IMG/VR virus record: IMGVR_UViG_3300031712_000006
Span: 1-64,000 of that record
Length of the DNA: 64,000 bases
Reading direction: 5' to 3' (one strand)
From: a virus
The notes beneath the pieces were generated by a model. That model made no database searches. It was not told the DNA's origin and saw only the letters and a program-made list of their open reading frames with translations. Made by a program: the position numbers and the translations under genes. Positions 4,540 through 44,037 of the stretch are shown piece after piece (the stretch's first letter is position 1; each line of letters opens with the position of its first letter).

Positions 4540-4567
4540 TATTACGCGCGAGCTCCGATATTCTCAA
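4540..4567 (-). promoter_or_regulatory. Class A promoter
   Basis: Reading on the minus strand: TTGAGA, 17 bases ending CTCGCGCG, then TAATA, six bases before ATG 4533. Predicted transcription start is at or next to the ATG. Confidence 0.65.
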
Positions 4568-8405: not shown

Positions 8406-9206
8406 ATGGCCAACTTCTCTGACCCCAAACGCCTTGACGAAGCCGCACGACTTCGCAACCAAGGGTTTAGCCTGCGCCAGATCTCAAAGATGACTGGGCT
8501 TCACCGGGAAACCGTCATCACCCACACAGGGAAGATTTCTCGCTCCGACTCGATGAAGATTTACCACTCCCGCCGTAAGGGCTTGGTAATCGATATGAGT
8601 GAGTTCAAGGTCCAGGCTATCGTCCACCCTGCTAGGTTCATCACCATCGGCGCCCCAGAACCCATCAAGCCCCGAGATCCACTCCAGGAACGCTTCCAAG
8701 CTAACCTGCACCTGGTCAACCTCGAAGCCCGAATCCTCATCCGCAAGCTGTGCCACAGCTACGACCTCAAGACCCTCGAACACTTCGGGACCATCGGCCT
8801 ATGGGACGCCTGCACCCGCTTCACCGGCGAGGAGGCATCATTCCCCGGTTACGCCCGCCTCCGTATTCGAGGTCAAGTATGGGATGAGATCCGAGTCGAG
8901 TCCAAGATCCCCCGCCGATTGATGAAGGCCGATGACAAACCTAGGTTTGAGGACATTGAGTACACTGTTATCCAGTCCAACTCACCCACTCAAGACAAAA
9001 CCCTCCACTTCCGGAACATTCTCCAACAAGTCGACTCAATCCCCTTCAGCGACCGAGAACGACAAGTCATCGAGGCCCTAGCCTCCGGTGACAAGTTCGC
9101 GGATCTCGCCACCTCCTGGGGCGTCTCAGAACCTCTAGTCAGTCAAACTAAAGCCCGAGCACTCCTGAAGATGACTAGACTCATCCGGGAAGCAGATCTC
9201 GAATAG
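8406..9206 (+). CDS. Phage RNA polymerase sigma factor with N-terminal HTH
   Basis: 266 residues. Residues about 8-40 form a resolvase-type helix-turn-helix (GFSLRQISKMTGLHRETVIT). Residues about 95-165 match sigma region 2 (LEHFGTIGLWDACTRF, SFPGYARLRIRGQVWDEIR), as in FliA-type factors. Residues about 205-260 are region 4 (PFSDRERQVIEALASG, WGVSEPLVSQTKARALL). It would direct RNA polymerase to phage promoters, plausibly one of the two start-proximal motifs found throughout this window. The extra N-terminal HTH is unusual. The gene is convergent with the 9209 gene. Confidence 0.85.
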   Translation: MANFSDPKRLDEAARLRNQGFSLRQISKMTGLHRETVITHTGKISRSDSMKIYHSRRKGLVIDMSEFKVQAIVHPARFITIGAPEPIKPRDPLQERFQANLHLVNLEARILIRKLCHSYDLKTLEHFGTIGLWDACTRFTGEEASFPGYARLRIRGQVWDEIRVESKIPRRLMKADDKPRFEDIEYTVIQSNSPTQDKTLHFRNILQQVDSIPFSDRERQVIEALASGDKFADLATSWGVSEPLVSQTKARALLKMTRLIREADLE

Positions 9207-10000: not shown

Positions 10001-10040
10001 GGGCTCTGGATACACCACCTGAATCGAGCACACTACCTTG

Positions 10041-10496
10041 GAATTATGGGCCTGTCAGAAAAAATATCCGCCCCATAGAAAATTTAAGGTCGCACACCCT
10101 CCCTTTGGGTCCCCTTTTAGGGGGGTGGGGGTCTGTTTGGATACTTTCCCTGTCCTTCATCGCGCCGAAGGCGCCCTGAGAGAACCCCGGAAATATCCTT
10201 CTACCTCACCTCCATCGTACGTAAACTGAATACGCGGTTAAGCCCCCTGTCCGGACGACCGAAAAGATAATGGATCGAATTTACACTATACACACAACCC
10301 ACACACAACAGGCGCTCAGCGCAGGTTAGGTGTGGGTATACACACAATACACTGTGTTACTCACTACTCACTCACACTAACCACACAATACACTGAAGGA
10401 GTGCAGGGCTCATCACACAACTACAATAGAACACGGGCGTTATAGTAGGTGAGTAGTGTTGTAGTAGGTAAAGTATGTACTTAGGTGATGGTGTGG
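10041..10496. other. Non-coding AC-rich region
   Basis: No convincing gene. From about 10285 to 10480 the plus strand is rich in short CACACA/ACTCAC units interleaved with GTGTG complements (e.g. ACACACAACCCACACACAAC). A G-run block (ccccttttaggggggtggggg) lies at 10113-10135. The composition differs sharply from the flanks and would suit a regulatory region or replication origin, which the sequence alone does not prove. Confidence 0.5.
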
Positions 10497-12325: not shown

Positions 12326-12660
12326 GAAGGCGTCATTGTGAGGTAACGCAAGAGGTAGAGTATCCCAATCCAGGGCGAATAGCAACAAGCTTAAAGGGAA
12401 CGGCCCCCTCCAGCGCCAACTGAAGAGGGCCACTCAACCTGTCCACGAAAGGAAACAATCAGGAACTAGTACGAGTTAGATAGTACACCAATCGGGGCCG
12501 AGTATCAACGAATACTTTATGGATCACATGTAGTTTTCGTTACCATTGGTGCTTATCGCGATGAACGTGCGCCAAAACTACATGTATGCAGAGTACAGAT
12601 CCATTCTTATAGCTATGAAAGCATGGTTTGCGCACATGGTTATACAGTAGAAGGATCCTA
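12326..12660. other. Intergenic region with ACATGTAGTTTT inverted repeat
   Basis: No convincing gene. A perfect 12-bp inverted repeat, ACATGTAGTTTT at 12526-12537 and its complement at 12574-12585, encloses 36 bases. A similar core (AACTACATGT) occurs in the 18.3-kb control region. This may be a binding site shared by the two regions. Confidence 0.5.
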
Positions 12661-15027: not shown

Positions 15028-15047
15028 CTTCCGGTGTACTAGCCCTC

Positions 15048-16789: not shown

Positions 16790-17086
16790 CTACCCTGACT
16801 CACACAAGGTACACGGTAGTGCGCTACCGGTCAAGTCCCATCTCAAACCCTGCAAAGCCTGCGGAGAGGGCACCGGTATGGTGTCCGGTGTCTTGTCAAT
16901 CTCGATGAGGGCATCTTCTTGACCTACGCCAAGAACCGGACCCCAATTCGAGAGTGACTTGAGAAGGACGAAGGCATCCTCCTTGGAGTACTCGCGCGCC
17001 TGCTCACGAGGCCCCCAGTACCAATGAAGGCCCTCATGGCAGAGGTAGACGCCGTTGACTTCCCGGTGCTTGATTACGAAGCTCAT
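16790..17086 (-). CDS. Hypothetical protein (98 aa)
   Basis: Starts MSFVIKHREVNGVYLCHEGL and has the look of a small domain with a strand and two helices (EYSKEDAFVLLKSLSNWG). A C-terminal CTLCESG is a half zinc-site. ATG overlaps the upstream stop. Confidence 0.65.
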   Translation of the reverse strand: MSFVIKHREVNGVYLCHEGLHWYWGPREQAREYSKEDAFVLLKSLSNWGPVLGVGQEDALIEIDKTPDTIPVPSPQALQGLRWDLTGSALPCTLCESG

Positions 17087-17679
17087 GTCTTCTTCCCTGG
17101 GTGGAAAAACTGGTACCCGGCGTTCTCGTTGCTCAGGTTCGGTAGTAGGGTGCGCTTGTAGAACCGCATGATGCGTTGTTCAGCGCTATCAACGTTCTCG
17201 GTACTCTGACCGCGCTGACCAACGTCATGGGGTTTGAATGGCTCTGGTAGTGGTTCCTCACCCATGATGCTGTACCCAGTCAGTACGTTGAGACCATCAA
17301 CGATGACAACCGGCTTCATACCTGCCTTCGGTCCACTGGCACAACTGTCGTCTAACATATTCGGTCCACTCAGTCCATTGACATCTTGGATGCGCTTGAA
17401 GGCATGCCGCTCACAAGCCAAACCGGGTTCCGGTATAACCTCCCCGTCGTGGAGAGTCGGTTGCTCCGAGCGCGGTATGCGAGTCACCAGACAGTACTCC
17501 GAACACGAGTCCCTAGTCCACTCCCCAAGACGTACATTGAACTCAGCCAAGAGAGCCGCCTCGCTCTTCACAGGGTCTGCCCACGAGCGCCACCCACCCT
17601 CTTGACGGTTCATGAGCCAGAGGTCCCCCTTGGGATCCCGTCGAAGTACGCAGTCGCCTAGTAGATTACGCTTTGCCAT
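17083..17679 (-). CDS. Hypothetical protein (198 aa)
   Basis: Starts MAKRNLLGDCVLRRDPKGDL. Several cysteines (SCSEYCL, LACERH, DDSCASG) are spread over the first 120 residues, and a hydrophobic strand precedes DGLN (PVVIVDGLNVLTG). No family recognised. Third gene of the 18291 operon. Confidence 0.65.
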   Translation of the reverse strand: MAKRNLLGDCVLRRDPKGDLWLMNRQEGGWRSWADPVKSEAALLAEFNVRLGEWTRDSCSEYCLVTRIPRSEQPTLHDGEVIPEPGLACERHAFKRIQDVNGLSGPNMLDDSCASGPKAGMKPVVIVDGLNVLTGYSIMGEEPLPEPFKPHDVGQRGQSTENVDSAEQRIMRFYKRTLLPNLSNENAGYQFFHPGKKT

Positions 17680-17895
17680 CTATATCACCTTTGAATTGAC
17701 CAAGTCTATCCTGTCCTGAATCACCCTCACCAGCATATCCGGGCAGCCATAACTCACTGCTGAACACAGCTTGTCCCGGTTGTCACTCCTGAGGTCGAGC
17801 GCATCCAGTAGTACTCGAGCCTGCCCCCACTGCTGACTCACGAGGGCCCTGTGGGTCACCGCGAACAGCTCCGAGGTCTTGAGCGTACACGTCAT
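17680..17895 (-). CDS. Small helical protein (71 aa)
   Basis: Starts MTCTLKTSELFAVTHRALVS; almost entirely helical, with repeat-like QARVLLDALD. It is packed between its neighbours without gaps. Confidence 0.6.
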   Translation of the reverse strand: MTCTLKTSELFAVTHRALVSQQWGQARVLLDALDLRSDNRDKLCSAVSYGCPDMLVRVIQDRIDLVNSKVI

Positions 17896-17898
17896 GTC

Positions 17899-18291
17899 CT
17901 ACCCCTTCACGCTTGCACGCCTCATCTCCCCCTGTAGGAGATCGACTGCGTTGTTCACCTGAGTAGCCAGCTCACGGAGCTGGGCCGGCGTAGCGCGCTT
18001 GGCTACCGCTTGAAGGTTGTCGAGAGCCTGCAGGTAGTGAGTCTGGGCAGCCGCTTTCATCTGCTCGGCCTCGTAGAGCTCAACCATCTCAGGTGTAGGT
18101 GGGAACCAAACCCGACCACCACACTGCCTAGAAGCCTTCGGGACCCGTTCTCCTGTAGTCATGATGACCACGGTCTTGGTCACGCGCTCAACGGTGACCT
18201 CATGCCATCCACTGATGCTTCGGTAGTACCAGGTTGCACCGGGTACCGTTGACCTGATCATCTCTTCTTGCTCAGGAGTGCTGATTGTCAT
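17899..18291 (-). CDS. Hypothetical protein (130 aa)
   Basis: Starts MTISTPEQEEMIRSTVPGAT, six bases after a class A TAATA; GGAGG also lies between TAATA and ATG. Beta-rich N-terminal half (TWYYRSISGWHEVTVERVTK), helical C-terminal half. First gene of the minus cassette 18291-16790. Confidence 0.7.
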   Translation of the reverse strand: MTISTPEQEEMIRSTVPGATWYYRSISGWHEVTVERVTKTVVIMTTGERVPKASRQCGGRVWFPPTPEMVELYEAEQMKAAAQTHYLQALDNLQAVAKRATPAQLRELATQVNNAVDLLQGEMRRASVKG

Positions 18292-18297
18292 GCCTCC

Positions 18298-18325
18298 TAT
18301 TACGCACCACTCGCTCTGATCTCAA
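18298..18325 (-). promoter_or_regulatory. Class A promoter
   Basis: TTGAGA, 17 bases, TAATA, six bases before ATG 18291. Unlike most copies, GGAGG sits between TAATA and the ATG. Confidence 0.65.
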
Positions 18326-18344
18326 CAAGAATTGATACTTCTGA

Positions 18345-18456
18345 TGTAGGCATAGTATCTGTTCATACTTTTACGGGCACGAACGTCACCGATAACTACA
18401 TGTGGTTTGGACAATACTTCAGAGCGGTATCGTCACGAACCGATACTCTGCCTACA
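18345..18456. repeat. 20-bp imperfect inverted repeat
   Basis: TGTAGGCATAGTATCTGTTC at 18345-18364 pairs with 18437-18456 at 18 of 20 positions. Between them lie GAACGTCACCGATA and CGTCACGAACCGATAC direct-repeat fragments and AACTACATGTGG. It looks like a regulatory or origin module. Confidence 0.55.
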
Positions 18457-18521
18457 TATCCAACCCTAACCCGGCGCTCCGCGCCTAGTTCTGGTGTGAC
18501 TATCCTACCTCAACACTTTAC

Positions 18522-18577
18522 ACAGTGAATCACAAGGCGCCAGAGGCGCAGTGTCACTTCCTTGTGTGATTCACTGT
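18522..18577. repeat. Inverted repeat ACAGTGAATCACA-AAGG
   Basis: ACAGTGAATCACAAGG (18522-18537) pairs with CCTTGTGTGATTCACTGT (18560-18577) with a two-base bulge. GGCGC/GCGCC blocks lie in the loop. It could extrude as a cruciform. Confidence 0.55.
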
Positions 18578-18776
18578 GAATGTGAATGGTGCTGCACTGA
18601 ACTCACATGAATTGCAAGACAACTGTGTGTGGGGGCTGCAGGTAGGTGTGTAATCCATCACAGGTCACTTGTGCGAAGCACCGTGAATTGTGTGGTATTA
18701 TAGTGTGTGTAGTTATTTAGGAAAATTGGGCCGGGTGGGTTTGGTATTTGCGGCGGTTGTCCGTCTGTTCAGCCTG

Positions 18777-18950
18777 CCACTTTCCGTGTACCACACTTGG
18801 AATGTACCACACGGAAAGTGGCGGGCCTTCCAGCCAGCCTCCCACTTTCCGTGTGGTACATTCCAAGTACTTGATATTACTAACCTATTAGCGTGGTACA
18901 AAGAATGAGGCGGGCCAGGCGTCCGCCCTGCCACTTTCCGGTGTACCACA
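18777..18950. repeat. Four iterated copies of a 19-20 bp motif before GIY-YIG gene
   Basis: Copies of CCACTTTCCGTGTACCACA lie at 18777-18795 (direct), 18803-18821 (inverted), 18842-18860 (direct, variant) and 18931-18950 (direct, with GGTGTA). Copies two and three sit in a perfect 26-bp inverted repeat (18796-18821 and 18842-18867). The last copy overlaps the class B start motif of the nuclease gene, which suggests autoregulation or a recognition site. Confidence 0.75.
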
Positions 18951-18955
18951 GAGGG

Positions 18956-19687
18956 ATGCCCGCGTACGGAATCATATACTTAGTACGGAACAAGACTACA
19001 GGGAAGGTCTACATCGGGCGTACTACTCAGCCATTAGCACTACGGTGGGCTGGACATGTGCATGATAGCAAGGGTAATGTTTCTACTGGGCTTCATGGAG
19101 CTATCAAGAGGCAAGGGCCTGATGCCTTTGCAGTTGAGGAGATAGAGGCCTACCCTGATCGAGCCACACTGTTGGTAGCTGAGAGGGATGCTATTGACCG
19201 ATACAAATCTCGTGACCCGAATGTTGGTTACAACATTGTGGCTGGGTATAAGGAAGGTGGGGACGCATACATTGGGACTGGGAGGGGTGGTAAAGAGTTA
19301 CGGAACAAGGTATTGAAGGTTCGGGTAACAGGGACACAGCTTGAAGCGATGGTTACTCGAGCTTGTGCAGATGGTCGTACTGTATCGGACTGGGCTCGTA
19401 TCCAACTAGAGAAGGCGTTGTCAGGTACGACTACTATGGTAGCAACTGAGTCTGTAGCACCTGTCGTAGTCGCAACTGAACCCTCGCTGAGCTCATCTGG
19501 GGGCGCTGATGCCTATCTGCAGGTATTGGAGGGTGGCACGCCTGAGCCTGGGGACGAGCATGCTTCGGTCTTACCTGAGCTTGTACCATTGCACTCGTCT
19601 GAGGGTGCCTCTCCCTCTGCTCCGGTGTCATCGTCTATAGGTGATGACATGTCGTGGTTGGATGAGATGACGTTTGACCTGGGGTGA
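18956..19687 (+). CDS. GIY-YIG endonuclease with C-terminal DNA-binding region (243 aa)
   Basis: Residues 1-90 are a GIY-YIG domain: GIIYLVRNKTTGKVYIGRTT, then LRWAGHVH, AIKRQGPDAFAVEEIE and ERDAIDRYKS, with the usual catalytic Tyr, Arg and Glu. Residues about 115-165 (KVLKVRVTGTQLEAMVTRAC...VSDWARIQLEKAL) resemble a ribbon-helix-helix domain, and the tail is Ser/Pro-rich. This ATG is 9 bases after GGTGTA and is preferred over one 21 codons upstream. It probably acts as a homing or restriction-like nuclease; the repeats upstream may be its binding sites. Confidence 0.8.
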   Translation: MPAYGIIYLVRNKTTGKVYIGRTTQPLALRWAGHVHDSKGNVSTGLHGAIKRQGPDAFAVEEIEAYPDRATLLVAERDAIDRYKSRDPNVGYNIVAGYKEGGDAYIGTGRGGKELRNKVLKVRVTGTQLEAMVTRACADGRTVSDWARIQLEKALSGTTTMVATESVAPVVVATEPSLSSSGGADAYLQVLEGGTPEPGDEHASVLPELVPLHSSEGASPSAPVSSSIGDDMSWLDEMTFDLG

Positions 19688-19696
19688 CGGCTCTGG

Positions 19697-20272
19697 TCAC
19701 AACTTCAGGGTACTTCTCTTGCGCAGAGCCTTTCTTGTGAGGTTGTGTGTCCCTCGGCAGGGGTGATTGAACAAGTCTCGGCGAAAGCTAAGGACGTTGC
19801 TCACTGAGGACTTTCGTTCGGGCATCCAATTGTATTCGGATAGGCGAGTACAGATGCTGGCGAATGTAAGTGTTTGGTCACCGAGGAGGTAGATGAGGTG
19901 GTTGATCAGGGTATGGTCCCCTTGGTTCCGGATTCCTCTCGGGATGGGTGTGAGTTTGCTTTCCAGGGGGTCCAGGTTGATGAGGGGGAAGGCTTCCTGA
20001 ATTCTTCTCTCGTAGTAGTCCAGTATTTCGTGCGTTCTATCTAGGCCTACTGAAAGGAACAAGTCATACAACTCGTGCTCGTGGGTGGTTATGGGGGCAC
20101 CTTCATCAGGGGGCGGCTCAGCGGGGTTTCTCTTCATTCCGTTCTTCTCATTGGACTTGACGACGCTCACCAGGTTCGAGGAAAGGCCATTCACCCCTTG
20201 TTTTCTGGCCATCCTCAAGATTTCAAGGGTAGGTTTTTTCAGGTTAGCTCGAACGAACTCAGATTTGTTCAT
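19697..20272 (-). CDS. Winged-helix-type protein, paralogue of the 43284 product (191 aa)
   Basis: The C-terminal domain (LINHLIYLLGDQTLTFASIC, then PERKSSVSNVLSFRRDLF) is clearly related to the end of the 43284-44036 product (ICTRL...RRSSVSNTLSGRRDIF). This helix-rich, R-S-S-V-S-N-containing module looks like a winged helix of the HARE-HTH type, but I am not certain. The N-terminal half is basic and helical. Class A promoter 10 bases upstream. Confidence 0.65.
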   Translation of the reverse strand: MNKSEFVRANLKKPTLEILRMARKQGVNGLSSNLVSVVKSNEKNGMKRNPAEPPPDEGAPITTHEHELYDLFLSVGLDRTHEILDYYERRIQEAFPLINLDPLESKLTPIPRGIRNQGDHTLINHLIYLLGDQTLTFASICTRLSEYNWMPERKSSVSNVLSFRRDLFNHPCRGTHNLTRKALRKRSTLKL

Positions 20273-20282
20273 AACACTTGAC

Positions 20283-20311
20283 TATTACGCGCGGCTAGGT
20301 GTGAATCTCAA
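20283..20311 (-). promoter_or_regulatory. Class A promoter, offset
   Basis: TTGAGA, 18 bases, TAATA, but ten bases rather than six before ATG 20272. Confidence 0.6.
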
Positions 20312-22307: not shown

Positions 22308-22748
22308 ATGAAGCTATACTCTGAGTTTTTCACCACTTTGCATGATGAAGACCCAATACTGGGTAATGGTATTCACTATTCGGTACTACGGGCTCTTGTA
22401 TGGGTACCTCAGATGAGCAATCACGACTTTGCTATCATCTGGGGTGCGGATCATGATTCGCGGATCTTGTGGGTAGCGGAGCAGCTCTATGTTCGTCTTC
22501 TACTTCACCATGTCTTGTTCATCTCTGAGAGTGCTTCTCGGGTTACGGTCTTGACATCGGGACCGGTGGCGATGGAGTTTGAGCGTGGGTTCAGGGAGAT
22601 TGCGGGTCGGGTTTCGTGTTATTGCTCCGAGGTCTGTATCGAGCCTTTTCGGAGTGGTACTGGGTACATAGCTGACGATACGGTTGAAGTATCGTCATAC
22701 CTGAATGGGATCAATGAGCGTTGGTCTTTGGGTACCCGGGGGGCGTGA
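22308..22748 (+). CDS. Hypothetical protein (146 aa)
   Basis: Starts MKLYSEFFTTLHDEDPILGN. Hydrophobic central strands (HHVLFISESASRVTVLT) suggest an alpha/beta fold. It precedes the first of the tagged genes. Confidence 0.65.
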   Translation: MKLYSEFFTTLHDEDPILGNGIHYSVLRALVWVPQMSNHDFAIIWGADHDSRILWVAEQLYVRLLLHHVLFISESASRVTVLTSGPVAMEFERGFREIAGRVSCYCSEVCIEPFRSGTGYIADDTVEVSSYLNGINERWSLGTRGA

Positions 22749-22749
22749 T

Positions 22750-23040
22750 TTGGCTTTACCGCCTTCATGTGATGGTTGTCGGTATTGTCCCTTGACGTAT
22801 CCCTCTCAGGGTGTTGTAGGCACGGAGGCTATTGGCCGGATACCGGTTGCTGACTTTGTTTGGAGGGCGGCTTGTTCTCGGGGTCATGAGGTACGGGTCT
22901 GTTGGGTATGGGATGGTCCATTGGAGGATGTGAAGACTATCCATCTGTATCGTTCGGTTCTTTGGTTGAATTGTCCTGACCGAGACGTCAAGTATGCTGG
23001 GCTTCGGAGGAGTCGTTACTCGCGGGAGTGGGTGATTTGA
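22750..23040 (+). CDS. Small Cys-rich protein with C-terminal SRYxRxxVI tag (96 aa)
   Basis: Paralogue of the 24242 product: both start near CDGCRYCPLTYPSQGV or CDSCRHCPSTYPSQGV and end LYRS...CPD...SRY. The CxxCxxC and CSRGH residues probably bind zinc. The C-terminus is RRSRYSREWVI, the tag shared by at least eight proteins here. TTG 22750 aligns best with the paralogue start; ATG codons at 22705 and 22714 are alternatives. Confidence 0.65.
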   Translation: MALPPSCDGCRYCPLTYPSQGVVGTEAIGRIPVADFVWRAACSRGHEVRVCWVWDGPLEDVKTIHLYRSVLWLNCPDRDVKYAGLRRSRYSREWVI

Positions 23041-23073
23041 TGCCTAGATATGAGCGGGATCCGGTCATCTGAT
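23041..23073 (+). pseudogene. Free-standing tag mini-ORF, MPRYERDPVI
   Basis: A ten-codon frame between two tagged genes encodes nothing but the C-terminal tag. It may be the remnant of a deleted tagged gene, or a free tag peptide. It directly abuts the stop of the preceding gene. Confidence 0.4.
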
Positions 23074-23088
23074 GGTGTACTCTTTGAT

Positions 23089-23589
23089 ATGCCTGTACGA
23101 AAAAGTTTTGCTAGTCAAAAGCTAATGGGGTGTTCTGAAGTACCGGTTGAACTGCAATTGGAGGCAGCTCGGTATCTTTTGGCGTGGGCTGATAGCAATC
23201 GAAGACCCTCCTTAGTCTACTCTACCTCAGCCTTCATATTCCAACACAGTACGGATCAAGACGAGCGACTTTCGAGAGCGCAATACTTGATAGGGGAGAG
23301 GTCTCCCCTATACGTCGTTGAGAGTACCCAACTCGATGTGGCTAAGTGGGTGCTTCAGAATCTAGAGGAGGGTACTGTCGATTATGACCTCGCTTGCATT
23401 TTTATTGTCAGGTTAGATCCCACATCACAGTTAGCTGGGCAAGCGGGTCAATACCTATACCGTACGGCGTTTGCTGATCCTGTCGAGGAAGAAGTTCAGG
23501 ATGATCCATCGTTACCTGCTGAGCCATCGGAAGAGAGTTCCAATTTACTTGAACGAGTCTCGAGATACGAGCGGGAACCGGTCATTTGA
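23089..23589 (+). CDS. Tagged hypothetical protein (166 aa)
   Basis: Starts MPVRKSFASQKLMGCSEVPV, 9 bases after GGTGTA. A helical body (residues 20-130), then an acidic Pro/Ser linker, then the tag LERVSRYEREPVI at the very end. The linker-tag arrangement suggests that the tag is exposed for recognition. Confidence 0.7.
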   Translation: MPVRKSFASQKLMGCSEVPVELQLEAARYLLAWADSNRRPSLVYSTSAFIFQHSTDQDERLSRAQYLIGERSPLYVVESTQLDVAKWVLQNLEEGTVDYDLACIFIVRLDPTSQLAGQAGQYLYRTAFADPVEEEVQDDPSLPAEPSEESSNLLERVSRYEREPVI

Positions 23590-23782
23590 CTTCCGGAAGC
23601 CATCCGATTACCTCCCAGTTGAAGTCTATCTCTGAGTTGTCGTCAGCGGTTCTCCAGTAGCAGTCATCTTCGTCGACGTGGACAAGAACGGACTCGACGA
23701 GCTTCCCAGTGGTAGCCCCTCGGAGGAGGGCTCTGACGGGTACTCCGACCGCGGGGTTTTGCTTCTTTGGGTCAATCCACAT
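23582..23782 (-). CDS. DUF551-like small protein (66 aa)
   Basis: Starts MWIDPKKQNPAVGVPVRALL and ends with FNWEVIGWLPEVK, the W.P..G..V and I.GW.PLPE layout of phage DUF551-type proteins. It lies antisense between two tagged plus-strand genes and overlaps the first by 8 bases. Confidence 0.6.
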   Translation of the reverse strand: MWIDPKKQNPAVGVPVRALLRGATTGKLVESVLVHVDEDDCYWRTADDNSEIDFNWEVIGWLPEVK

Positions 23783-23801
23783 TTGGTGTAATCTCGGGTA
23801 T

Positions 23802-24242
23802 ATGCCAACGATTGAAGTGGACGAGAGCGATCAGGTATTCGTGGTCAAGGGGCGTACGGGTCGTGGTGGGTATCACGAGTTTGGGCCGAGCGATCTTATC
23901 ATAGCGGTACAGAGTCTTCGTAGTGTTATTGACGAGGTGGGCTTTGAAGACCCTGGAGTACCGGAGAACGACATTTATACTCGTGTTTGGATAGGTGGTA
24001 CATACTGGGGTGGCTGGGGTGGGTTTACCCTCACGAATTTGGGGGGCCCTCGGAACACCCATGTTGAGTTCACCTTTCAGAGGGGACAAGCTCCAGTACT
24101 ACAAGAGAGGATTCTGGGTCTTGGTCCATGGGCAACGATTCGATACCTAGGTGACCCCACTGGCTCATCGGAACCACCCGTTGAGGAGCCATTGACACCG
24201 GTTGACAGGGTCTCGAGGTACAACCGGGATCCGGTCATCTGA
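23802..24242 (+). CDS. Tagged hypothetical protein (146 aa)
   Basis: Starts MPTIEVDESDQVFVVKGRTG, 11 bases after GGTGTA, in preference to an in-frame ATG 31 codons earlier. Beta-rich with many Gly and Trp (YWGGWGGFTLTNLGG). Ends in a Pro/Glu linker and the tag VDRVSRYNRDPVI. The stop overlaps the next ATG. Confidence 0.7.
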   Translation: MPTIEVDESDQVFVVKGRTGRGGYHEFGPSDLIIAVQSLRSVIDEVGFEDPGVPENDIYTRVWIGGTYWGGWGGFTLTNLGGPRNTHVEFTFQRGQAPVLQERILGLGPWATIRYLGDPTGSSEPPVEEPLTPVDRVSRYNRDPVI

Positions 24243-24754
24243 TGCCTAACCCTTGTGACAGTTGCCGGCACTGTCCCTCTACGTATCCCTCTCAGGGTGT
24301 TACGGGGGACGCGGTAGGGCGGTCCCCAAACTTTGGGTGGGAGGGCACTTGCTTACTGGGGCATCCGGTCGGCATCCTATGGGAGTGGGTTACTGAGAAC
24401 TTCGTGAGTGAGGACTCGTTGGTGAAATCCTCTTTGATGTTCAACATCTGGGAGCGTGAGTCAACACTACACGTCACGAACTCAACTAGATTCCCGGCTC
24501 AATCGAGGTTTAAGGTTCAGGTTGACCAAGAGATCATACTGGTTACTAGTGTCGATACTGGCGTTGGGGGTAACACTTGGAGGGTAACTCGAGGGGTTGA
24601 TGGTACTATCGCTATCCCTCATGCCGCTGGGGCGATTGTTACAGGCGCAACGATAGCGGCTATTCGACTTTACCGGTCGAACACCCTTGGTTCATGCCCT
24701 GACTGGGCTGAACCTATTCGGGTGAGTCGGTATCATCGTGCGTGGGTGATCTGA
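24242..24754 (+). CDS. Tagged protein: zinc-knuckle shell with inserted virion-type domain (170 aa)
   Basis: The first 40 and last 35 residues match the 22750 product (CDSCRHCPSTYPSQGV; IRLYRS...CPDW). Between them about 75 extra residues match a phage structural motif: TNSTRFP..., ILVTSVDTG, TWRVTRGVDGTIAIPHAAGA. The same motif occurs in the 58357-58856 tail gene. It ends with the tag PIRVSRYHRAWVI. The arrangement indicates a domain insertion into a duplicated gene. Confidence 0.7.
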   Translation: MPNPCDSCRHCPSTYPSQGVTGDAVGRSPNFGWEGTCLLGHPVGILWEWVTENFVSEDSLVKSSLMFNIWERESTLHVTNSTRFPAQSRFKVQVDQEIILVTSVDTGVGGNTWRVTRGVDGTIAIPHAAGAIVTGATIAAIRLYRSNTLGSCPDWAEPIRVSRYHRAWVI

Positions 24755-26388: not shown

Positions 26389-27666
26389 ATGTTCGACCTG
26401 ATTGCTCGCAATGTCGCCCGACGTTATGCGGCAGTGATAGACCAGAAGACTCTCGATAAGTGGGCAAAAGACCTCAAGATCATGACCAAGATCTATCGGG
26501 ACATCCCCTTGGATTATGAGTGGGATGACACTGCAGGGCGCGAGAAGGGGTATGAGCACTTCAATGAGGCGCAGAAGCTGTTTCGCACCTTTCGGGACGG
26601 GTTTGAGGCTTGGGTATACAAGGTCATACTGCCCAAGATGGACAAGGAAGAGGCCCATCTCATCAAGGAGCTTCGCACGAGCACTTGGAACTTTATTCAC
26701 GTGCTTAGGGACTTGTTTCCGACCCGATGGGATGGGAAAGACAGCCATACGGTAACATACAGCCCTGACCTAAATGAGTTGAAAAAGAAGCGCGAGGGGT
26801 GGATCAAACGGTACCAAGTAGCGTTCACCAAGGTTTACAAGCAGCTGACTGAGTACATAGCCTCTCAGGGCGGGACGATGGTTCGCTATGATGCTGTGGA
26901 CCATCTTGAGGTAGCGGGCGTCCCTGTGACCATTGAAAACGTTGGTCGGAAGGAGGATGACGACTACGCTGCTGAGATCTTGAACCTATTGGGCAAGCAC
27001 TTGAAGACGGTTCGGAGGGCTGGATTCTCGATAGCGCTTGATGGGTTGAATGTCCTGTTGAAGTTTGATACCCGTGAGTTCGATGTAGCAGGGATGTACA
27101 ATCCTTCGACAGATATACTTACCTTGTACCCACTGGGTATGCTAGCGGCCCCTGATGGGCATACCTTGATTCACGAGATCGGGCATCGGTTCTGGTTCAA
27201 GTGTCTTCCGGGGCAAGCTCGAACTGAGTGGGAAGAGATTCTCGGTGACCGAGGGGTGACTATCTCTGATAGGGACATAGAGCACTTCTACCGCATTGTT
27301 GTGGACAAGCTTCCAAAGGACTGGGCCTTCATGGATGCCAAGGACATACTGAACTTGACTCTACCTGCTGCAAAGAGTCGAGCTGATGAGATCAAGTTCA
27401 GGGAGCTTTCTGAGACCTACATCAGGTCTATCAGTGCTAAGCCTAGTGAGCCTTTTGATCCGGATGACTACCTACGTCGCCTCAAATTCAAGGACAAAGA
27501 AGTAGTTCAAGTTGAGGAGATCTCTGACTATGGTGATACGGAGCCAATAGAGGGTTTTGCTGAGGCGTTCCGTCTGTGGGTGACGAAGGGGCCGCGGGCT
27601 CTCGGGCCTTTCACTCGAGAGCTATTCGTCCAAGTTTGCCAAGCGGGTGGCGCTCGGATTCGATAG
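26389..27666 (+). CDS. Zinc metallopeptidase-like protein (425 aa)
   Basis: HTLIHEIGHRFW near residue 265 is an HExxH zinc motif, and PIEGFAEAFRLWV near residue 390 supplies a downstream Glu, as in gluzincins. The N-terminus MFDLIARNVARRYAAV matches the motif of four other proteins. The 55714 and 56958 products share both features, so the window encodes three related enzymes of 415-452 residues. The role (virion maturation, cell-wall or host-protein cleavage) is not shown by sequence. Confidence 0.75.
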   Translation: MFDLIARNVARRYAAVIDQKTLDKWAKDLKIMTKIYRDIPLDYEWDDTAGREKGYEHFNEAQKLFRTFRDGFEAWVYKVILPKMDKEEAHLIKELRTSTWNFIHVLRDLFPTRWDGKDSHTVTYSPDLNELKKKREGWIKRYQVAFTKVYKQLTEYIASQGGTMVRYDAVDHLEVAGVPVTIENVGRKEDDDYAAEILNLLGKHLKTVRRAGFSIALDGLNVLLKFDTREFDVAGMYNPSTDILTLYPLGMLAAPDGHTLIHEIGHRFWFKCLPGQARTEWEEILGDRGVTISDRDIEHFYRIVVDKLPKDWAFMDAKDILNLTLPAAKSRADEIKFRELSETYIRSISAKPSEPFDPDDYLRRLKFKDKEVVQVEEISDYGDTEPIEGFAEAFRLWVTKGPRALGPFTRELFVQVCQAGGARIR

Positions 27667-32915: not shown

Positions 32916-33187
32916 GTTTATTCTTAGTTACTGGGCCGAAAGGCCACATTGACTCTCAGGTTCTGGTAGTTGAAGCTTCGACGGTGGATGTGGCCGCTGT
33001 TGGGGTTGGCAATTTTATGGGTTTCCTGGCTGACGGTCAGGTGGTAATTGCGGACTTTGGTGACCCCAATTCCCCTCGTGAGTATCAGTACGTGCGCACG
33101 GTGAATGGTCAGGAGCATCTTGTTCACATGAATGTCCAGCCTACCAAGATCCTTCGCATTACTGGTGACGGGGGAGTACAGAGATGA
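32912..33187 (+). CDS. Hypothetical protein, paralogue of the 31962 product (91 aa)
   Basis: Starts MSLFLVTGPKGHIDSQVLVV. Aligns with the 31962 product over most of its length. Overlaps the Thg1 start by four bases. Confidence 0.65.
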   Translation: MSLFLVTGPKGHIDSQVLVVEASTVDVAAVGVGNFMGFLADGQVVIADFGDPNSPREYQYVRTVNGQEHLVHMNVQPTKILRITGDGGVQR

Positions 33188-33936
33188 AAAGCGACACCCT
33201 AGAAGCGAGGATGCGCCGGCTTGAGTACTACCACTCATTGGAGGTTCTCCCCGATACTTACACGATCATCCGCGTTGATGGGCGGAGCTTTACGAAGCTG
33301 ACTCGTGGGATGGATCACCCATTTGACGTGAAGTTTCACGAGTCTATGGTCGAGACAGCGGCGATTCTCTTGGTCGAGCTTGGAGGGTTGTATGCGTTCA
33401 CGGAGAGTGACGAGATTTCTGTTCTATTGCCTCGCGATACGGATCTATTTGGCCGCGAGGTGGAGAAGCTGGTGTCGGTCTCTGCAGGGATAGCTTCCTC
33501 GACCTTCTCGATTCAACTAGGTCAGGCGGCTCACTTCGACAGTCGGTTATGGGTTGGGCCGTTGACATCCAATGTGCTGGACTACTTCCGTTGGAGGCAG
33601 CTGGACGCTTCCCGGTGCTGTATCAACTCCTGGTGCTACTGGACAATGAGGAGATCCGGGCATACCGCCAAGCAGGCGACGGAGGGGCTCGAAGGGGCCA
33701 CCTTCTCTACCAAGAACGAAATACTGCACAAGAACGGGATCAACTTCAACAACGTTCCTCTATGGCAGAAGCGTGGGACCGGGCTCTATTGGCATGGTTT
33801 CGAGAAAACTGGATTCAACCCCAAGACCAAGACATCCAGTATTGCTCAAAGACGGAAGATCTACATCGACCGGAATCTACCCTATGGGGACGAATATGTT
33901 GATCTTGTGACTCAAATACTGCAGAATCTCAAGTAG
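33184..33936 (+). CDS. Thg1-like tRNA-His guanylyltransferase / 3'-5' RNA polymerase (250 aa)
   Basis: The N-terminal half has YTIIRVDGRSFTKLTRG and HPFDVKFHESM, then TESDEISVLLP, the two metal-binding motifs of Thg1 and Thg1-like proteins. Length fits the family (about 240-270 aa). These enzymes add nucleotides 3'-5' to the 5' end of tRNA, either G-1 on tRNA-His or repair of truncated 5' ends. With the polynucleotide kinase next door and the RNA ligase at the window end, a tRNA-repair role is likely. Confidence 0.85.
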   Translation: MKSDTLEARMRRLEYYHSLEVLPDTYTIIRVDGRSFTKLTRGMDHPFDVKFHESMVETAAILLVELGGLYAFTESDEISVLLPRDTDLFGREVEKLVSVSAGIASSTFSIQLGQAAHFDSRLWVGPLTSNVLDYFRWRQLDASRCCINSWCYWTMRRSGHTAKQATEGLEGATFSTKNEILHKNGINFNNVPLWQKRGTGLYWHGFEKTGFNPKTKTSSIAQRRKIYIDRNLPYGDEYVDLVTQILQNLK

Positions 33937-33940
33937 TTCG

Positions 33941-34429
33941 ATGGATCTCATCATTCTTGTTGGCCTGCAGGCATCGGGAAAGAGCACCTTTCAAAAGGTG
34001 CTCTTTCCCGACTATGTCCTTGTGAGCAAGGACTTGATGACTCGTAGTCGCAAGAATCGGACTCCAAAGTCTGTGAGACAGACTCTGCTCATTCGGGAGG
34101 CTCTCGAGGCAGGGAAGTCCCTAGTAGTGGACAACACGAACCCGAGTGTTGAAGAACGGGCTGAGTTGGTAGCTCTGGCGCGTTACTACTCCGCACGGGT
34201 CATCGTATACCATTTCAGATCCAATGTTCAGCAGTCTATGGAGAGGAATGCTCAACGGACAGGGAAGGCATTCGTCCCGCGCGTGGGCATCCTCATCACG
34301 GCTCAAAGGTTCGTGGACCCAACCCTGGCGGAAGGCTTTGACGAGCTCTACGAGGTGATGTGGGGCCCCCTTCAATACCACCTACTCAGAATCAGATCAA
34401 CACCTGGCCCTTCAAACCCCACCTACTGA
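33941..34429 (+). CDS. Polynucleotide kinase-type P-loop kinase (162 aa)
   Basis: LIILVGLQASGKSTFQKV is a Walker A of the T4 Pnk / AAA_33 type. SKDLM, LVVDNTNPSVEERAELV and the Arg-containing lid (MERNAQRTGK) match the 5'-kinase family. It probably phosphorylates 5' RNA or DNA ends in the same repair pathway as Thg1. Two oddities: a perfect 17-bp palindrome (33975-34010) covers the Walker A codons, and the last 20 or so codons lie inside the CRISPR array. Confidence 0.8.
   Translation: MDLIILVGLQASGKSTFQKVLFPDYVLVSKDLMTRSRKNRTPKSVRQTLLIREALEAGKSLVVDNTNPSVEERAELVALARYYSARVIVYHFRSNVQQSMERNAQRTGKAFVPRVGILITAQRFVDPTLAEGFDELYEVMWGPLQYHLLRIRSTPGPSNPTY
33975..34010. repeat. Perfect 17-bp palindrome in the kinase Walker A coding sequence
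   Basis: CGGGAAAGAGCACCTTT is followed after two bases by its exact complement. Coding constraint makes a perfect 17-bp stem unusual here. The transcript would fold into a very stable hairpin inside the P-loop codons. Confidence 0.8.
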
Positions 34430-35662
34430 TAATGGGGTCAGAACTTGGCTATTGCGGGTTGCTGGTCGTAGTCAATGCATCCTTCAAGCACCACCTACTC
34501 AGAATAGGATCAACCACGCATTTGGGCCGTTGTGCTCGAACTCTCCGACGAACCTTCAAGAACCACCTACTCATAATCGGATCAACACAAGAAGTCGACT
34601 AGCAATGGTTCCAATCGATAGATTGCCTTCAAACCCCACCTACTCAGAATCGAATCAACACCTATTGGCGAAAATTGACTATGCCAAGCGAGGCGACCTT
34701 CAAGAACCACCTACTCAGAATCGGATCAACACAATCCCACCCGCGCCGACATCCTAATGCTCGTGAGCCCCTTCAAACCCCACCTACTCATAATCGGATC
34801 AACACGCGAAATCCGGCCCCCTTTTCCTCCCTTTGCCGAATCCTTCAAACCCCACCTACTCATAATCGGATCAACACGCGAGAACGGGCCACGTTGGCGT
34901 GTGGCTGACATAACCCTTCAAACCCCACCTACTCATAATCGGATCAACACAACCCTAGTCACTATGCGATGGGGCTAGCTAACGGCCCTTCAAGCACCAC
35001 CTACTCAGAATCGGATCAACACGTTCATGCCCGGCGTAACACCTTCATCGGGCTTGATCCCTTCAAGAACCACCTACTCATAATCGGATCAACACAACGC
35101 GCTAGCCAAGATTGACGGCCTCAAAATCGAACCTTCAAACCCCACCTACTCATAATCGGATCAACACCGTAAGTGAGGTCTACGGCGAGGCCGCTTGTCG
35201 GATTCCTTCAAACCCCACCTACTCATAATCGGATCAACACCTGGACTCTGATGACCTGCCTTCAAACCCCACCTACTCATAATCGGATCAACACTGACCA
35301 AGTACCTGACCGAGTCCCAACCGAGTTCAGACCTTCAAACCCCACCTACTCATAATCGGATCAACACTCGAGATCAACGACATAACGTCGTTGTCGTCCT
35401 CGCCCCTTCAAACCCCACCTACTCATAATCGGATCAACACCGCCAAGTGCCGAGACGACCGGGAATAGCAGCGAGTCACCTTCAAACCCCACCTACTCAT
35501 AATCGGATCAACACCCCGCCTAGCCCTCCCAGAAGGGACTGACGAGCAACTCCCTTCAAACCCCACCTACTCATAATCGGATCAACACCTACGAATGCGT
35601 TGAGCACGCTTCTCTGCGTCGACAGTCCTTCAAACCCCACCTACTCATAATCGGATCAACAC
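34369..35662 (-). CRISPR. CRISPR array, 19 repeats of 36 bp, 18 spacers
   Basis: Plus-strand repeats begin CCTTCAAACC and end GGATCAACAC; on the likely transcribed (minus) strand they begin GTGTTGATCC and end GTTTGAAGG. Repeat starts are 34369, 34409, 34481, 34553, 34626, 34697, 34770, 34842, 34915, 34987, 35060, 35132, 35205, 35259, 35332, 35405, 35479, 35553 and 35627. Spacers are 35-38 nt, except a 5-nt one at 34404 and an 18-nt one at 35241. Repeats at the low-coordinate end are degenerate (AAGAACC, AAGCACC and CAGAATC variants), so the leader is at the high end, next to the cas-like genes. The repeat has no strong internal hairpin. No cas1 or cas2 is present. Confidence 0.97.
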
Positions 35663-35887
35663 ACGTTACTGCAGTAATCAATCAATTCCACCACTTCACA
35701 TGCTTCTTGCGAGAGGGTACTAAAAGCACCTTTTGATTCCCAAGTATGTTAGGGAAGGAGCCCCCATTACGGGTAAGTACCCTTCTCGCTTTCCGCACTC
35801 AATTTGTCAAGGATCATGGACTTACTCGCTCAAGAATAGTCCTGCGAGCGAGTAAGGGGTGAAGCTAAGCACCTCACCCCTCGTAAA
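35663..35887 (-). promoter_or_regulatory. CRISPR leader with two hairpins
   Basis: Lies between the coiled-coil gene stop and the first repeat. On the minus strand it has hairpin GGGGTGA...TCACCCC, then an 11-bp perfect hairpin CTTACTCGCTC/GAGCGAGTAAG, then TTGACA (35805-35810) and an AT-rich ATTGATTGATTAC before the array. The hairpins may end the cas transcript; the rest is the likely leader. Confidence 0.6.
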
Positions 35888-36598
35888 TCAAGCGGCCTTC
35901 CTTGATACCTTGCTGGTCCGTGGTACAGGTTTCTTAGTGATTAGGTTTTGGGGGTCATATTCGGCCAGTCGTTTTTTAAGGTCGTCCCGCTCTTTCTTGA
36001 GTTCTCGGACTTCTTCTTTCAGCTGGCAGATCCTCTCCCGGGCTTCGTCGAGTTGAGTTGCTAGGTCGCTCTTCGGGTTTCGTGGTACATTACTGACTAA
36101 ACCATGAGCCTTACGGTACTCCTTAACACGACTACCAACGGTGACGTCACTTAGTGGAAACCTACGGGTTTCCACTCCCGGTTCAAGTTCCTCCTTGACG
36201 AAGGTATGCCGATGCACTTTTGGTAGGCTAACCACTTTGGACAGCGCTCGAATGCTGTAGACCAAACAAGCTTCAACCCCAAACTCGAGTAGGGCCTCCT
36301 TGCCGTTGTTATACCTGCTCACATCAGGGAGCGATGTTTGATAGTACTTCAACCACCCATTGAAGGTATGGCACTGGACTGCCGACTTTTTCCAGAGCTC
36401 GCTTTTCTCGTAGGCGGTAAGATAGGCTATTAGCCGCATCTCACCCTGATCAGCATCGGCCTTAAGCCTTCGAATTAGGTCCAAAGCTTGGTCTTCGTCT
36501 GGAAAGTCCTTCGGCTTGAGTTTGAGTAGCCTAGTTATGATCTGTTTAGTACTTCCAGTGACCTTGTAAGGATCAACAAATGTGGGCTTGGTTGGCAT
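35888..36598 (-). CDS. Coiled-coil partner of the type V-like effector (236 aa)
   Basis: ATG 36598 is 8 bases after the effector stop, so the two genes form an operon that reads toward the array. Residues 1-110 are helical and basic; residues about 120-160 contain VHRHTFVKEE and a short beta part. Residues about 170-215 form a strong coiled coil (ICQLKEEVRELKKERDDLKK), followed by a basic Lys/Arg tail. I recognise no Cas family, and it is not Cas1, Cas2 or Cas4. It may dimerise, bind DNA, or help the effector repress targets. Confidence 0.75.
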   Translation of the reverse strand: MPTKPTFVDPYKVTGSTKQIITRLLKLKPKDFPDEDQALDLIRRLKADADQGEMRLIAYLTAYEKSELWKKSAVQCHTFNGWLKYYQTSLPDVSRYNNGKEALLEFGVEACLVYSIRALSKVVSLPKVHRHTFVKEELEPGVETRRFPLSDVTVGSRVKEYRKAHGLVSNVPRNPKSDLATQLDEARERICQLKEEVRELKKERDDLKKRLAEYDPQNLITKKPVPRTSKVSRKAA

Positions 36599-36606
36599 TG
36601 TAACCT

Positions 36607-38466
36607 CTATTCAGCTGCATCTGCGGTATCAGGTTGTTCACCCATAAGGTTCATACTTTCAGGTGAGTTGTTTCGTGTACGAATATGCATTAGACCCTCA
36701 ACCTTATTTCTGAAGCCCTGATCAACTACCGCCAGGCTATCGGCATCAGTGACCAGAAGAACCTTGAACAGTCTCCAGGCTCTGAATAGGTTCTTTGGGG
36801 CTACGGCTCCACAACCAGTCCTGCACCACTGTTCGGGACGACCATCATAGTTAGCAGAGTCAACTAGGGTCTTCTCCCCGCCGCACATGGGGCAGTCTTT
36901 GACTCCAGAGTGTTTGATTACCTTGGTTGGGACCCCATGTTTCTTGCAAGCCCATGCGATCTTGTCACGGAAGGTACACCAGGGAAAACGTCGTAGGAGA
37001 CGTTCTATCTTGCGATCCGGAGCAGTAGGGACTGAAACCATATCGTCGATCCCGACGATAGCACCGATACTATTGGCGTACCTGGCTAGATGGGAGGCCT
37101 GCTGCTCCATCCAGGTGTTGGTCCTATCGGTCTCTTTACCCTCGACTACTTCTAGTGATAGTCGGAATCTCTTCTGACCATGCCCTCTCGCACCTCGACC
37201 AACGAAGTTCAAGTGGCGCGCTCGGGCTGACCTCATGGAGTCATACATTTTCTTGAGGTGGATGAAACCCGAGGAGTCTATCCCCTTCGGAAGGACCTCC
37301 CCAGCCCCCTTGTACTTGCCGCGAAGGTAATCACCTTCATGTGAGTAAATCATCGCCAAGTCATTGAGCGCCGGGATTACTACCAGCGCAGTCTTGACCT
37401 TTGAAGGTTCGGGTCGGGGTTTCTTGAACCCCAGCTTGAACACCCACTTCCCTTCATCAAGAACCAATCTACCTTGAGTTGTCTTGTACCCCTTCGTACC
37501 ACTTATGGCCCTCTTGAGGGTTGCCCAGTCAGAGCTACCTCGAACTTGGACTCGGGCAACAAGAGGTGCTACTCGTTGACCCTTGCTCGCCCCAGCTAGT
37601 ACTCTGAGACTAAGCATGACGATTTCTTTGGGTAATTCGGCCGGGGCAGAAGGACAACGCTTTCGGTAGGCTTCTGGGGTAGTGATCTCGATACTAAAGC
37701 AGTCGGTTTTGATTGGGAACCCAGTCACCTTCGGCCATGGTGGGGACTTATCCTGTGAATTTCTAGCCTCCCAGTTGCCATACCTGGTGGAGTAGTCCTT
37801 ACTGGCAGTCGCTACTATGTTTGACGATGGCCGCATCAACCTCAGAAGCGGGTCATCTAGACTTTCTAGATACTCATCCATCCCTTCATTGCAGGTTCGA
37901 TACGCTGCAGTCTCCAAGTTCCCTTCGATTGGACCCTGGAACCGACGTCGGTACACGGCTTGGAGGCCCATAGTGAGCGTCCTGGCTACCCCGTAGAACT
38001 GGTTCTTTAGGGTGGCCGCCTCCTCCTTAGGAAGATCCGAGAATACTATGGGGAGCGTTAGTGCACCTGGAAGGTTGAACAGAGCTTCCTCGACCCCTTC
38101 AAGGTTACGATCTTGGATGATCTCAAGAGGGATTCGTCCTAGGGTATCTCTTCCATACTTGGCCATTGGACAACCGCAGTACAGGTATACTGAAACTTTT
38201 GGTTGCTTCTTGGGTTTCAGACCTAGTTGATCCGCCGTCTGATAGTACTTTACAAGGAGCTTGTAAACTTCCCCACTGGCCCACTCCTTATCAGCGTCGG
38301 TCAGCTCAGGTTTCTTGATCTCCTCTATTTTCTTCTTGGTTGCCACGTAGGCTACCTTTCCAGCGAGTGGTCGTAACCCTCGCTTTATGCTTATTCCCAC
38401 TATGTTGTAGAGTTGTTGCCACCAATCGTCCATCGAGACTTGACCGAGTAAGTGGGGCCGTATCAC
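36607..38466 (-). CDS. Type V-like CRISPR effector with degenerate RuvC (619 aa)
   Basis: The C-terminal half follows the Cas12/TnpB plan. A strand before RuvC (KWVFKLGFKKP, about residues 340-350) is followed by RuvC-I around 360-372 (ALVVIPALNDLAM). An arginine-rich bridge follows (KKMYDSMRSARARHL, GRGARGHGQKR, 403-433), then RuvC-II at 470-476 (IVGIDDM). The zinc knuckle is C525/C528 and C548/C552, and the RuvC-III region is CGAVAPKNLFRAW. The expected Asp-Glu-Asp appears as Pro365, Asp474 and Pro557 by my alignment, so nuclease activity is probably lost. GTG 38466 and ATG 38433 are both possible starts; ATG gives 608 residues. A hairpin copy of the 2038 element lies inside the first codons. 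It likely binds crRNA and target DNA without cutting. Confidence 0.85.
   Translation of the reverse strand: MIRPHLLGQVSMDDWWQQLYNIVGISIKRGLRPLAGKVAYVATKKKIEEIKKPELTDADKEWASGEVYKLLVKYYQTADQLGLKPKKQPKVSVYLYCGCPMAKYGRDTLGRIPLEIIQDRNLEGVEEALFNLPGALTLPIVFSDLPKEEAATLKNQFYGVARTLTMGLQAVYRRRFQGPIEGNLETAAYRTCNEGMDEYLESLDDPLLRLMRPSSNIVATASKDYSTRYGNWEARNSQDKSPPWPKVTGFPIKTDCFSIEITTPEAYRKRCPSAPAELPKEIVMLSLRVLAGASKGQRVAPLVARVQVRGSSDWATLKRAISGTKGYKTTQGRLVLDEGKWVFKLGFKKPRPEPSKVKTALVVIPALNDLAMIYSHEGDYLRGKYKGAGEVLPKGIDSSGFIHLKKMYDSMRSARARHLNFVGRGARGHGQKRFRLSLEVVEGKETDRTNTWMEQQASHLARYANSIGAIVGIDDMVSVPTAPDRKIERLLRRFPWCTFRDKIAWACKKHGVPTKVIKHSGVKDCPMCGGEKTLVDSANYDGRPEQWCRTGCGAVAPKNLFRAWRLFKVLLVTDADSLAVVDQGFRNKVEGLMHIRTRNNSPESMNLMGEQPDTADAAE
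38363..38383. repeat. Covarying bulged hairpin, copy B (inside effector gene)
   Basis: Twenty-four bases around this site (AGCGAGTGGTCGTAACCC followed by TCGCTT) are identical to the core of the element at 1996-2133, although here they encode part of the effector N-terminus (RGLRPLAG). Chance identity of this length is very unlikely. Confidence 0.7.
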
Positions 38467-40012: not shown

Positions 40013-40079
40013 GGTGAGGAAGTCTACACCAAATCACTACAATTGACAACAATTGTCGCACCATGGTACGACTCGCTCG

Positions 40080-44036: not shown

Positions 44037-44037
44037 G

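Follow-up and report, generated by a model that had tools for sequence, protein, structure and literature searches.

Within the 64,000-nt window analyzed here, which covers positions 1-64,000 of the 66,340-bp virus record IMGVR_UViG_3300031712_000006 (G000), a leftward gene and a rightward nuclease gene point away from a gap that is crowded with repeats:

17899-18291, minus strand: first of the leftward genes, 130 aa, with no Pfam match at 0.01
18298-18325, minus strand: promoter-like box, TTGAGAT-N13-GCGTAATA, with an ATG a few nucleotides further on
18344-18364/18437-18457: first inverted repeat (21 nt, 90%)
18521-18534/18565-18578: second inverted repeat (14 nt, 100%)
18795-18826/18837-18868: third inverted repeat (32 nt, 94%)
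18770-18955, unstranded: box cluster with five GTACCAC/GTGGTAC boxes (starting at 18788, 18804, 18853, 18893, and 18943), three exact CCACTTTCCGTGT cores, and a variant copy at 18931-18950
18795-18868, plus strand: long hairpin of two inverted box units, lineage-specific
18940-18945, plus strand: GGTGTA start box, within the fourth repeat copy
18956-19687, plus strand: GIY-YIG nuclease, 243 aa, with an RHH-like C-terminal part at about residues 113-160 and the tail DDMSWLDEMTF

Each of the three inverted repeats reported in the first-pass annotation is present, within 1 nt of where it had been placed, and the third contains a 27-bp perfect stem, the longest in the record among stems with a spacer under 40; a competing stem (18772-18789/18809-18826) shares some of its bases. 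The repeats had also been read as four copies of a 19-mer, and this holds in part: one copy is exact and a 13-nt core, CCACTTTCCGTGT, is exact in three, but the fourth copy (18931-18950) carries one extra G. The three exact cores, the only ones in the whole record, all lie in the gap (18777 plus, 18809 minus, and 18842 plus); the first continues ...ACCACA, while the two others continue ...GGTACA. Their count with 2 mismatches allowed is matched in 3 of 100 shuffles, which is weak evidence if taken alone. Five GTACCAC/GTGGTAC boxes are a better description than four copies. G000 has five such boxes and the related contig G001 (see below) has eight of the form GGACCAC, against about 0.05-0.06 expected by density, and one 7-mer occurs five times in 186 bp in 2 of 2134 record windows, which overlap and may both include the module itself.

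The GGTGTA start box assigned to the last copy does lie inside it, ahead of the nuclease ATG at 18956. Across the record, 26 of 41 GGTGTA occurrences precede, by 5 to 15 nt, a start codon that opens at least 40 codons, and GGTGTA is possibly a non-standard translation start signal. The motif stands 8-12 nt upstream of many starts (e.g., at 15033, 18940, 20331, 25398, and 28732), a habit also seen in G001, G002, and G003. At the other end of the gap, the layout TTGAGA ... GCGTAATA with a nearby ATG is one that precedes many leftward genes of the record and is present in G001 too; minus-strand examples lie at 4547, 5771, 6329, 6987, 9441, 11920, 18305, and 20290. Because the ATG follows GCGTAATA by only a few bases, this arrangement hints at leaderless messages. 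A sigma-70 promoter in the gap was considered and rejected, none having been found there. The record also encodes a sigma-like protein (8406-9206), which matches HTH_23 and GerE above the cut-off and sigma-70 regions below it.

Conserved DNA in related genomes

The strict form of the promoter-like layout, scanned against IMG/VR, led to four stretches in two contigs of metagenome 3300038415:

G001: 98,513 bp
G002: 36,576 bp

Reversed, G001 is co-linear with G000 from about 23 to 82 kb. Protein alignment further uncovered G003, a 512,571-bp megaphage contig that is related to G000, bears a 127-nt end repeat, encodes tail and baseplate proteins, and has homologues of G000 scattered across it. The comparison set consists of three genomes (G000, G001, and G003), two of them from one metagenome. 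Other searches widened it no further: blastn of 17,001-20,300 against 50,697 phage records, the gap against 72,556 plasmid records, and the left twin element of G001 (see below) against phage records gave no match; the GIY-YIG and Thg1 proteins as queries and a scan for the hairpin pattern found no kin among viral contigs; a search with the core pattern and the leftward-gene alignment A3 recovered G001 as the sole relative; and alignment A5 returned the same two contigs from viral contigs and had no match in genome contigs.

Against these relatives, the gap and its surroundings resolve into several conserved features:

18460-18753, plus strand: conserved noncoding core, matching G001:56716-57007 (71%, E 4.5e-30)
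18521-18578, plus strand: core hairpin, with an inner GCGCC/GGCGC stem at 18537-18549 and the GC-skew minimum (18523) inside it
18686-18725, unstranded: AT-rich 40-mer with 11 G+C, the lowest of the gap, aligning with an AT-rich stretch of G001
about 18,342-18,457, plus strand: right copy of the twin element, some 112 bp and self-complementary, corresponding to the first inverted repeat (nhmmer coordinates 18,342-18,455)
12525-12635, plus strand: left twin-element copy (E 5.2e-24 in nhmmer when the profile contains all six)
G001, 57,053-57,163 and 65,019-65,129: twin-element copies
G003, 83,694-83,806 and 91,436-91,546: twin-element copies
10035-10496, unstranded: region A, a second conserved noncoding region, which contains GCGCC-GAA-GGCGC and lies by the other skew shoulder (10434)

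The core is 70-72% identical to its G001 counterpart (205 of 291 aligned positions). That the gap is free of genes, as originally described, is borne out: between 18460 and 18753 the indels relative to G001 are of 1 and 2 nt and of 1, 1, and 1 nt, and with indels this short (1-2 nt), the core is noncoding. In the core hairpin, the outer arms of G001 show one pair changed from T-A to A-T and one from G-C to G-T, with none broken, and all five pairs of the inner stem are unchanged. The AT-rich stretch at 18686-18725 is a possible unwinding element. The core was not recovered in G003, where nhmmer matches only the element part. The box cluster is another matter, in that the CCACTTTCC hairpin has no counterpart in G001 and tandem 25-bp repeats with GGACCAC boxes stand there instead; the CCACTTTCC repeats form a group of GTACCAC boxes beside the GIY-YIG gene that is specific to this lineage. 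Conservation in relatives was a check put forward with the first-pass annotation, and the region proves to be conserved.

The twin element is found by nhmmer in exactly two copies in each of the three genomes, 5.8 to 8.0 kb apart (5.8 kb in G000), and is absent from G002. The second places first surfaced when 18,292-18,770 and its G001 counterpart were used as a search profile, and the six copies were then aligned. A profile built from the four G000 and G001 copies finds both G003 places (4e-11 and 2.7e-7; best match of the reversed-sequence control, 0.72). In the opposite direction, the G003 copies alone find both places in G000 (1.7e-4 and, for the left copy, 0.0024; none in the reversed control) and both in G001 (5e-7 and 0.0013; reversed control, 0.097). 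The genes between the copies correspond between G000 and G001 and differ in G003. Noncoding DNA with repeated sites is conserved as the core in two of the three genomes and as the twin element in all three.

What kind of element is this? Every copy matches itself on the opposite strand, as protein-binding arrays do. In G000 all three occurrences of AACTACATG fall inside twin elements; in G001, five of six fall in the 25-bp iterons and one in the left twin element. Counting against this pattern, one of three in G003 lies inside a twin element. The element is probably an array of protein-binding boxes composed of AACTACATG and inverted arms. We also considered that twin element and core might be a structured RNA, given that individual copies have better folds than shuffled sequences (z -2.5 to -5.2). 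The common fold of the six copies is weak (-3.4 kcal/mol) and shows no covariation gain, however, the self-matching on both strands is not what this explanation would favor, and the window contains no Rfam match. An RNA reading of the two features together is therefore very improbable, and an RNA family for the twin element was rejected on account of the weak common fold, the same observation that leads us to favor a DNA-binding array.

Region A is 69% identical to G001 at about 66.4-66.8 kb, and a profile built from both sequences has its best place in 512 kb at G003:81,986-82,353 (E 9.9e-7). The second T5orf172-type gene of G001 (66,828-67,637) abuts region A, and in G003 a ParB_N gene (80,333-81,073; PF02195, 4.1e-6) lies some 0.9 kb away.

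The skew switch and its nuclease and RHH-like genes

A GC-skew survey over whole genomes had been suggested as a further check. It places the cumulative minimum of G000 within the second inverted repeat, at 18,523. The minimum of G001 (56,944) shares its column of the pairwise alignment with that of G000; calculated from the other strand, the G001 minimum falls at 56,932, and the exactness of the column match is partly luck. For G003 the skew was detrended because its net skew is strongly negative. After this step its minimum (93,096) and its maximum (346,028) are 252.9 of 512.6 kb apart (49.3% of the genome), so that G003 displays the terminus-like maximum opposite the minimum of a closed genome.

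Can transcription alone account for these patterns? The gene strand switches close to the gap, whose left end carries a promoter box; skew and conservation might then both reflect a hub of divergent promoters that separates leftward from rightward operons. Yet third-position skew switches at the site on both gene strands in G000, G001, and G003, the switch persists after strand correction, and the skew extremes of G003 are opposed. We regard the transcriptional explanation as quite improbable. The strand-corrected best break of G000 is at 18.25-18.5 kb. In G003, a strand-corrected scan with an opposed origin and terminus peaks at 91.0 kb (t 6.49), and 93.0 kb ranks third among 1026 positions; in 200 permutations, for which the scan used a coarser 10-kb grid, the largest t is 4.88. 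The best break of G001 is at 64.75 kb (t 6.66), 7.8 kb off, and 57.0 kb scores lower (5.15). A second skew shoulder lies near region A in both G000 (10,434) and G001 (66,407), with near-neutral skew from there up to the gap; between the twin copies of G003 there is no flat stretch (-0.08). Because of this shoulder and the near-neutral skew, the switch spreads over some 8 kb and in G000 and G001 reaches its deepest point at the gap. The second shoulders and the G001 best break are also the reason that a start could sit at region A or between it and the gap. As a sign of replication, GC skew is indirect, and for G003 it depended on detrending.

The nuclease of G000 matches Pfam GIY-YIG at 2.7e-8 (34.4 bits versus a cut-off of 22.6) and a homing endonuclease PHROG at 1.6e-13, and I-TevI ranks first in Foldseek (E 5.9e-3). 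The RHH-like C terminus that the first-pass annotation had proposed receives weak support, from a NikA-like match (0.0012) that is below the cut-off, from DinJ antitoxins as the best PDB matches of a profile (0.027), and from 34% identity over 103 aa with a stand-alone RHH-like protein of G001. That 116-aa protein is encoded directly downstream of the 25-bp tandem repeats, and the next gene of G001 encodes a MUG113/T5orf172-type protein that, by eye, contains another RHH-like stretch; its tail, DDMSWLDGMEF, is shared with the window nuclease (DDMSWLDEMTF). The corresponding place in G001 is occupied by RHH and MUG113-RHH-like genes and is not an empty site. This MUG113/T5orf172 gene has an in-frame stop close to its beginning (L011, around 1399). 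Near 93.1 kb in G003 lies a T5orf172 protein (PF10544, 3.5e-6) with an RHH-like end; the six-frame search missed it, inspection by eye picked it up, and hmmscan confirmed it. Two small RHH-like ORFs lie there as well, one of them too short for the ORF listing and recognized by eye. The RHH assignments, which come from weak matches and a by-eye pattern, are weakly supported; structure models are poor, and that of the G003 protein, built without relatives, has a mean pLDDT of 39.9 and serves here for its strand-helix-helix order alone. The RHH protein of G001 has no match in G003 or phage records, nor does the T5orf172-RHH protein of G003 in phage records.

Taken together, a GIY-YIG-superfamily gene with an RHH-like part stands at the skew switch in all three genomes and is of another nuclease type in two of them. 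This linkage bears on another explanation, namely, an ordinary homing endonuclease that, like I-TevI, has its own operator and hairpin and lies near an origin by chance. The best-matching families are indeed those of homing endonucleases, the last box and the start box overlap, and the available part of PMC2988022 describes both autorepression of I-TevI at an operator and T4 hairpins that hide start sites. Set against this are the recurrence at the switch in three of three genomes and the situation in G003, where one of six GIY-YIG-superfamily genes (including the switch T5orf172) is at the switch and those away from it have no RHH-like part by eye. Unlike a conserved, start-site-hiding hairpin of the T4 type, moreover, the hairpin at 18795-18868 is not kept in G001, where tandem repeats replace it, and core and twin element would be left unexplained. 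We consider the homing explanation unlikely. The window nuclease is like I-TevI and the T4 homing endonucleases in its GIY-YIG catalytic domain and in having sites and a hairpin just upstream, and it differs from I-TevI, as far as the available part of PMC2988022 goes, in its RHH-like C terminus, its origin-like site, and the lack of a visible intron.

A predicted replication-origin locus

The gap, which the first-pass annotation had called a control region upstream of the nuclease, is not a single control unit of that gene, because the stretches 18344-18457 and 18460-18753 are conserved beside another nuclease type; for the same reason, an operator of the nuclease only was rejected. The annotation's alternative suggestion, that the region could also be an origin, fares better, given the skew of three genomes, the conserved noncoding DNA, and the twin element. 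Building on the observed skew switch, conservation, two-copy element, box clusters, and linkage of GIY-YIG-superfamily and RHH-like genes, we think that the gap is probably one part, on the right-hand side, of a bidirectional replication-origin locus that is conserved in a megaphage lineage and accompanied by an RHH box cluster and a nuclease. Replication is predicted to start at this locus. A DnaA-type origin was rejected, as boxes at one mismatch are absent from 18,260-18,960 of G000 (one was found in G001 and three in G003); phage origins need not carry DnaA boxes.

In the model that we propose, the gap would read, from left to right, as leftward-gene promoter, twin element, core, and box cluster. 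An initiator would bind the twin elements, the strands would open at the AT-rich part of the core, which combines a strong hairpin with that AT-rich stretch, and forks would depart both ways. An RHH protein from the adjoining gene is predicted to bind the G[T/G]ACCAC boxes. It would limit its own expression, given the overlap of the last box with the start box, and would also act on the origin. In G000 this RHH domain would be fused to the GIY-YIG nuclease, for which binding or cutting of the box copies is a plausible prediction. Would such a nuclease nick its own origin, attack rival origins as Odn does, or simply home into the origin? Either of the first two would explain why boxes and nuclease type vary while the twin element stays. 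We offer only tentatively, and with more doubt than conviction, the fuller version of this model, in which a two-part origin is bracketed by the twin element and a swappable GIY-YIG-superfamily nuclease-RHH protein reads the boxes and either nicks its own origin, helping replication to begin, or destroys those of co-infecting relatives with boxes that it can read.

A different division of labor would make the boxes and twin elements partition sites, that is, a centromere, with replication starting at region A or nearby and with RHH proteins of the ParG/ParR/omega type, or ParB in G003, as the partition proteins. Partition sites usually lie near the origin. The tandem boxes of G001 directly upstream of a small RHH-like gene, the ParB_N gene beside region A in G003, and the skew shoulder at region A are all consistent with this arrangement. 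The skew minimum of G000 and G001, however, is in the gap and not at region A, no ParA-type partner was found among the proteins scanned (a small part of the genes), and no G000 ORF matched the ParB place of G003. A centromere thus seems to us a rather doubtful alternative to the origin locus favored above.

Known parallels and further features

In NikA/MobA-type systems and in iteron-type replicon or partition loci, an RHH protein is found beside repeated or inverted origin boxes. The present locus appears to work like an iteron-type origin or partition locus: it too sets boxes beside a putative RHH protein, for which the best match, though below the cut-off, is NikA-like. Unlike the NikA/MobA-type loci, it shows no relaxase or oriT, and the gap is without a match in the plasmid records. 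Another parallel is Odn of ICP1. According to the available part of PMC8263062, Odn is a T5orf172 GIY-YIG-superfamily nuclease with a domain like that of an origin-binding protein; it acts via iterons, cuts a satellite's origin, and mimics the satellite's RepA. Here as there, a GIY-YIG-superfamily nuclease is joined to a DNA-binding domain, in this case a putative one related to the G001 RHH-like protein (34%), a predicted origin binder. Compared with what that part of the report describes, the present gene lies at the phage's own origin-like region, its DNA-binding part is RHH-like, and its targets are putative. The literature searched yielded no paper on T5orf172 together with ribbon-helix-helix.

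Bidirectional-replication skew has a precedent, in that the available part of Al-Shayeb et al. (2020; PMC7162821) puts the share of huge phages with such skew at about 30%. The present case is likewise one of such skew in a huge phage genome and, in contrast to the skew patterns given in that part, which come without a sequence-level element, adds a conserved core and a twin element. No sequence-level origin for huge phages was found in the literature searched. A concrete conserved element with an RHH/nuclease pair offers a testable handle on how giant viruses start DNA copying, connects phage origins with warfare of the Odn type, and provides, in the twin-element profile, a means of locating origins in other megaphage genomes.

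Several features elsewhere in the record deserve mention in their own right. A CRISPR-like array in the region of 34550-35690 and 35888-38466 has 13 matches to the repeat TGTTGATCCGATTATGAGTAGGTGG, and beside it is a 619-aa protein that is Cas12/TnpB-like by eye (a zinc ribbon), has a weak Lar match alone in Pfam, and has a 27%-identical relative in G001. Within 33184-34429, a Thg1-type tRNA-His guanylyltransferase (PF04446, 1.4e-27) adjoins a P-loop kinase (AAA_33), whose gene contains a perfect 18-bp inverted repeat at 33974-34011. A SWIM-DDE transposase (52685-53917; PF01609, 3.7e-22) has the phage promoter layout upstream, and 43284-44036 encodes an HU-like DNA-binding protein (PF00216, 9.3e-7). 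A C-terminal SRYxRxxVI tag recurs in 22705-23040, 23050-23589, 23709-24242, 24242-24754, 40053-40682, and 43981-44376 and also in G001, and an N-terminal IAxxVAxRY motif is common to 26389-27666, 55714-56961, and 56958-58316. In G003, several large proteins (SNF2-type, AAA, and ClpX) carry intein or LAGLIDADG domains (e.g., L066:3560-6655, L065:11484-14426, and L064:17074-19446).
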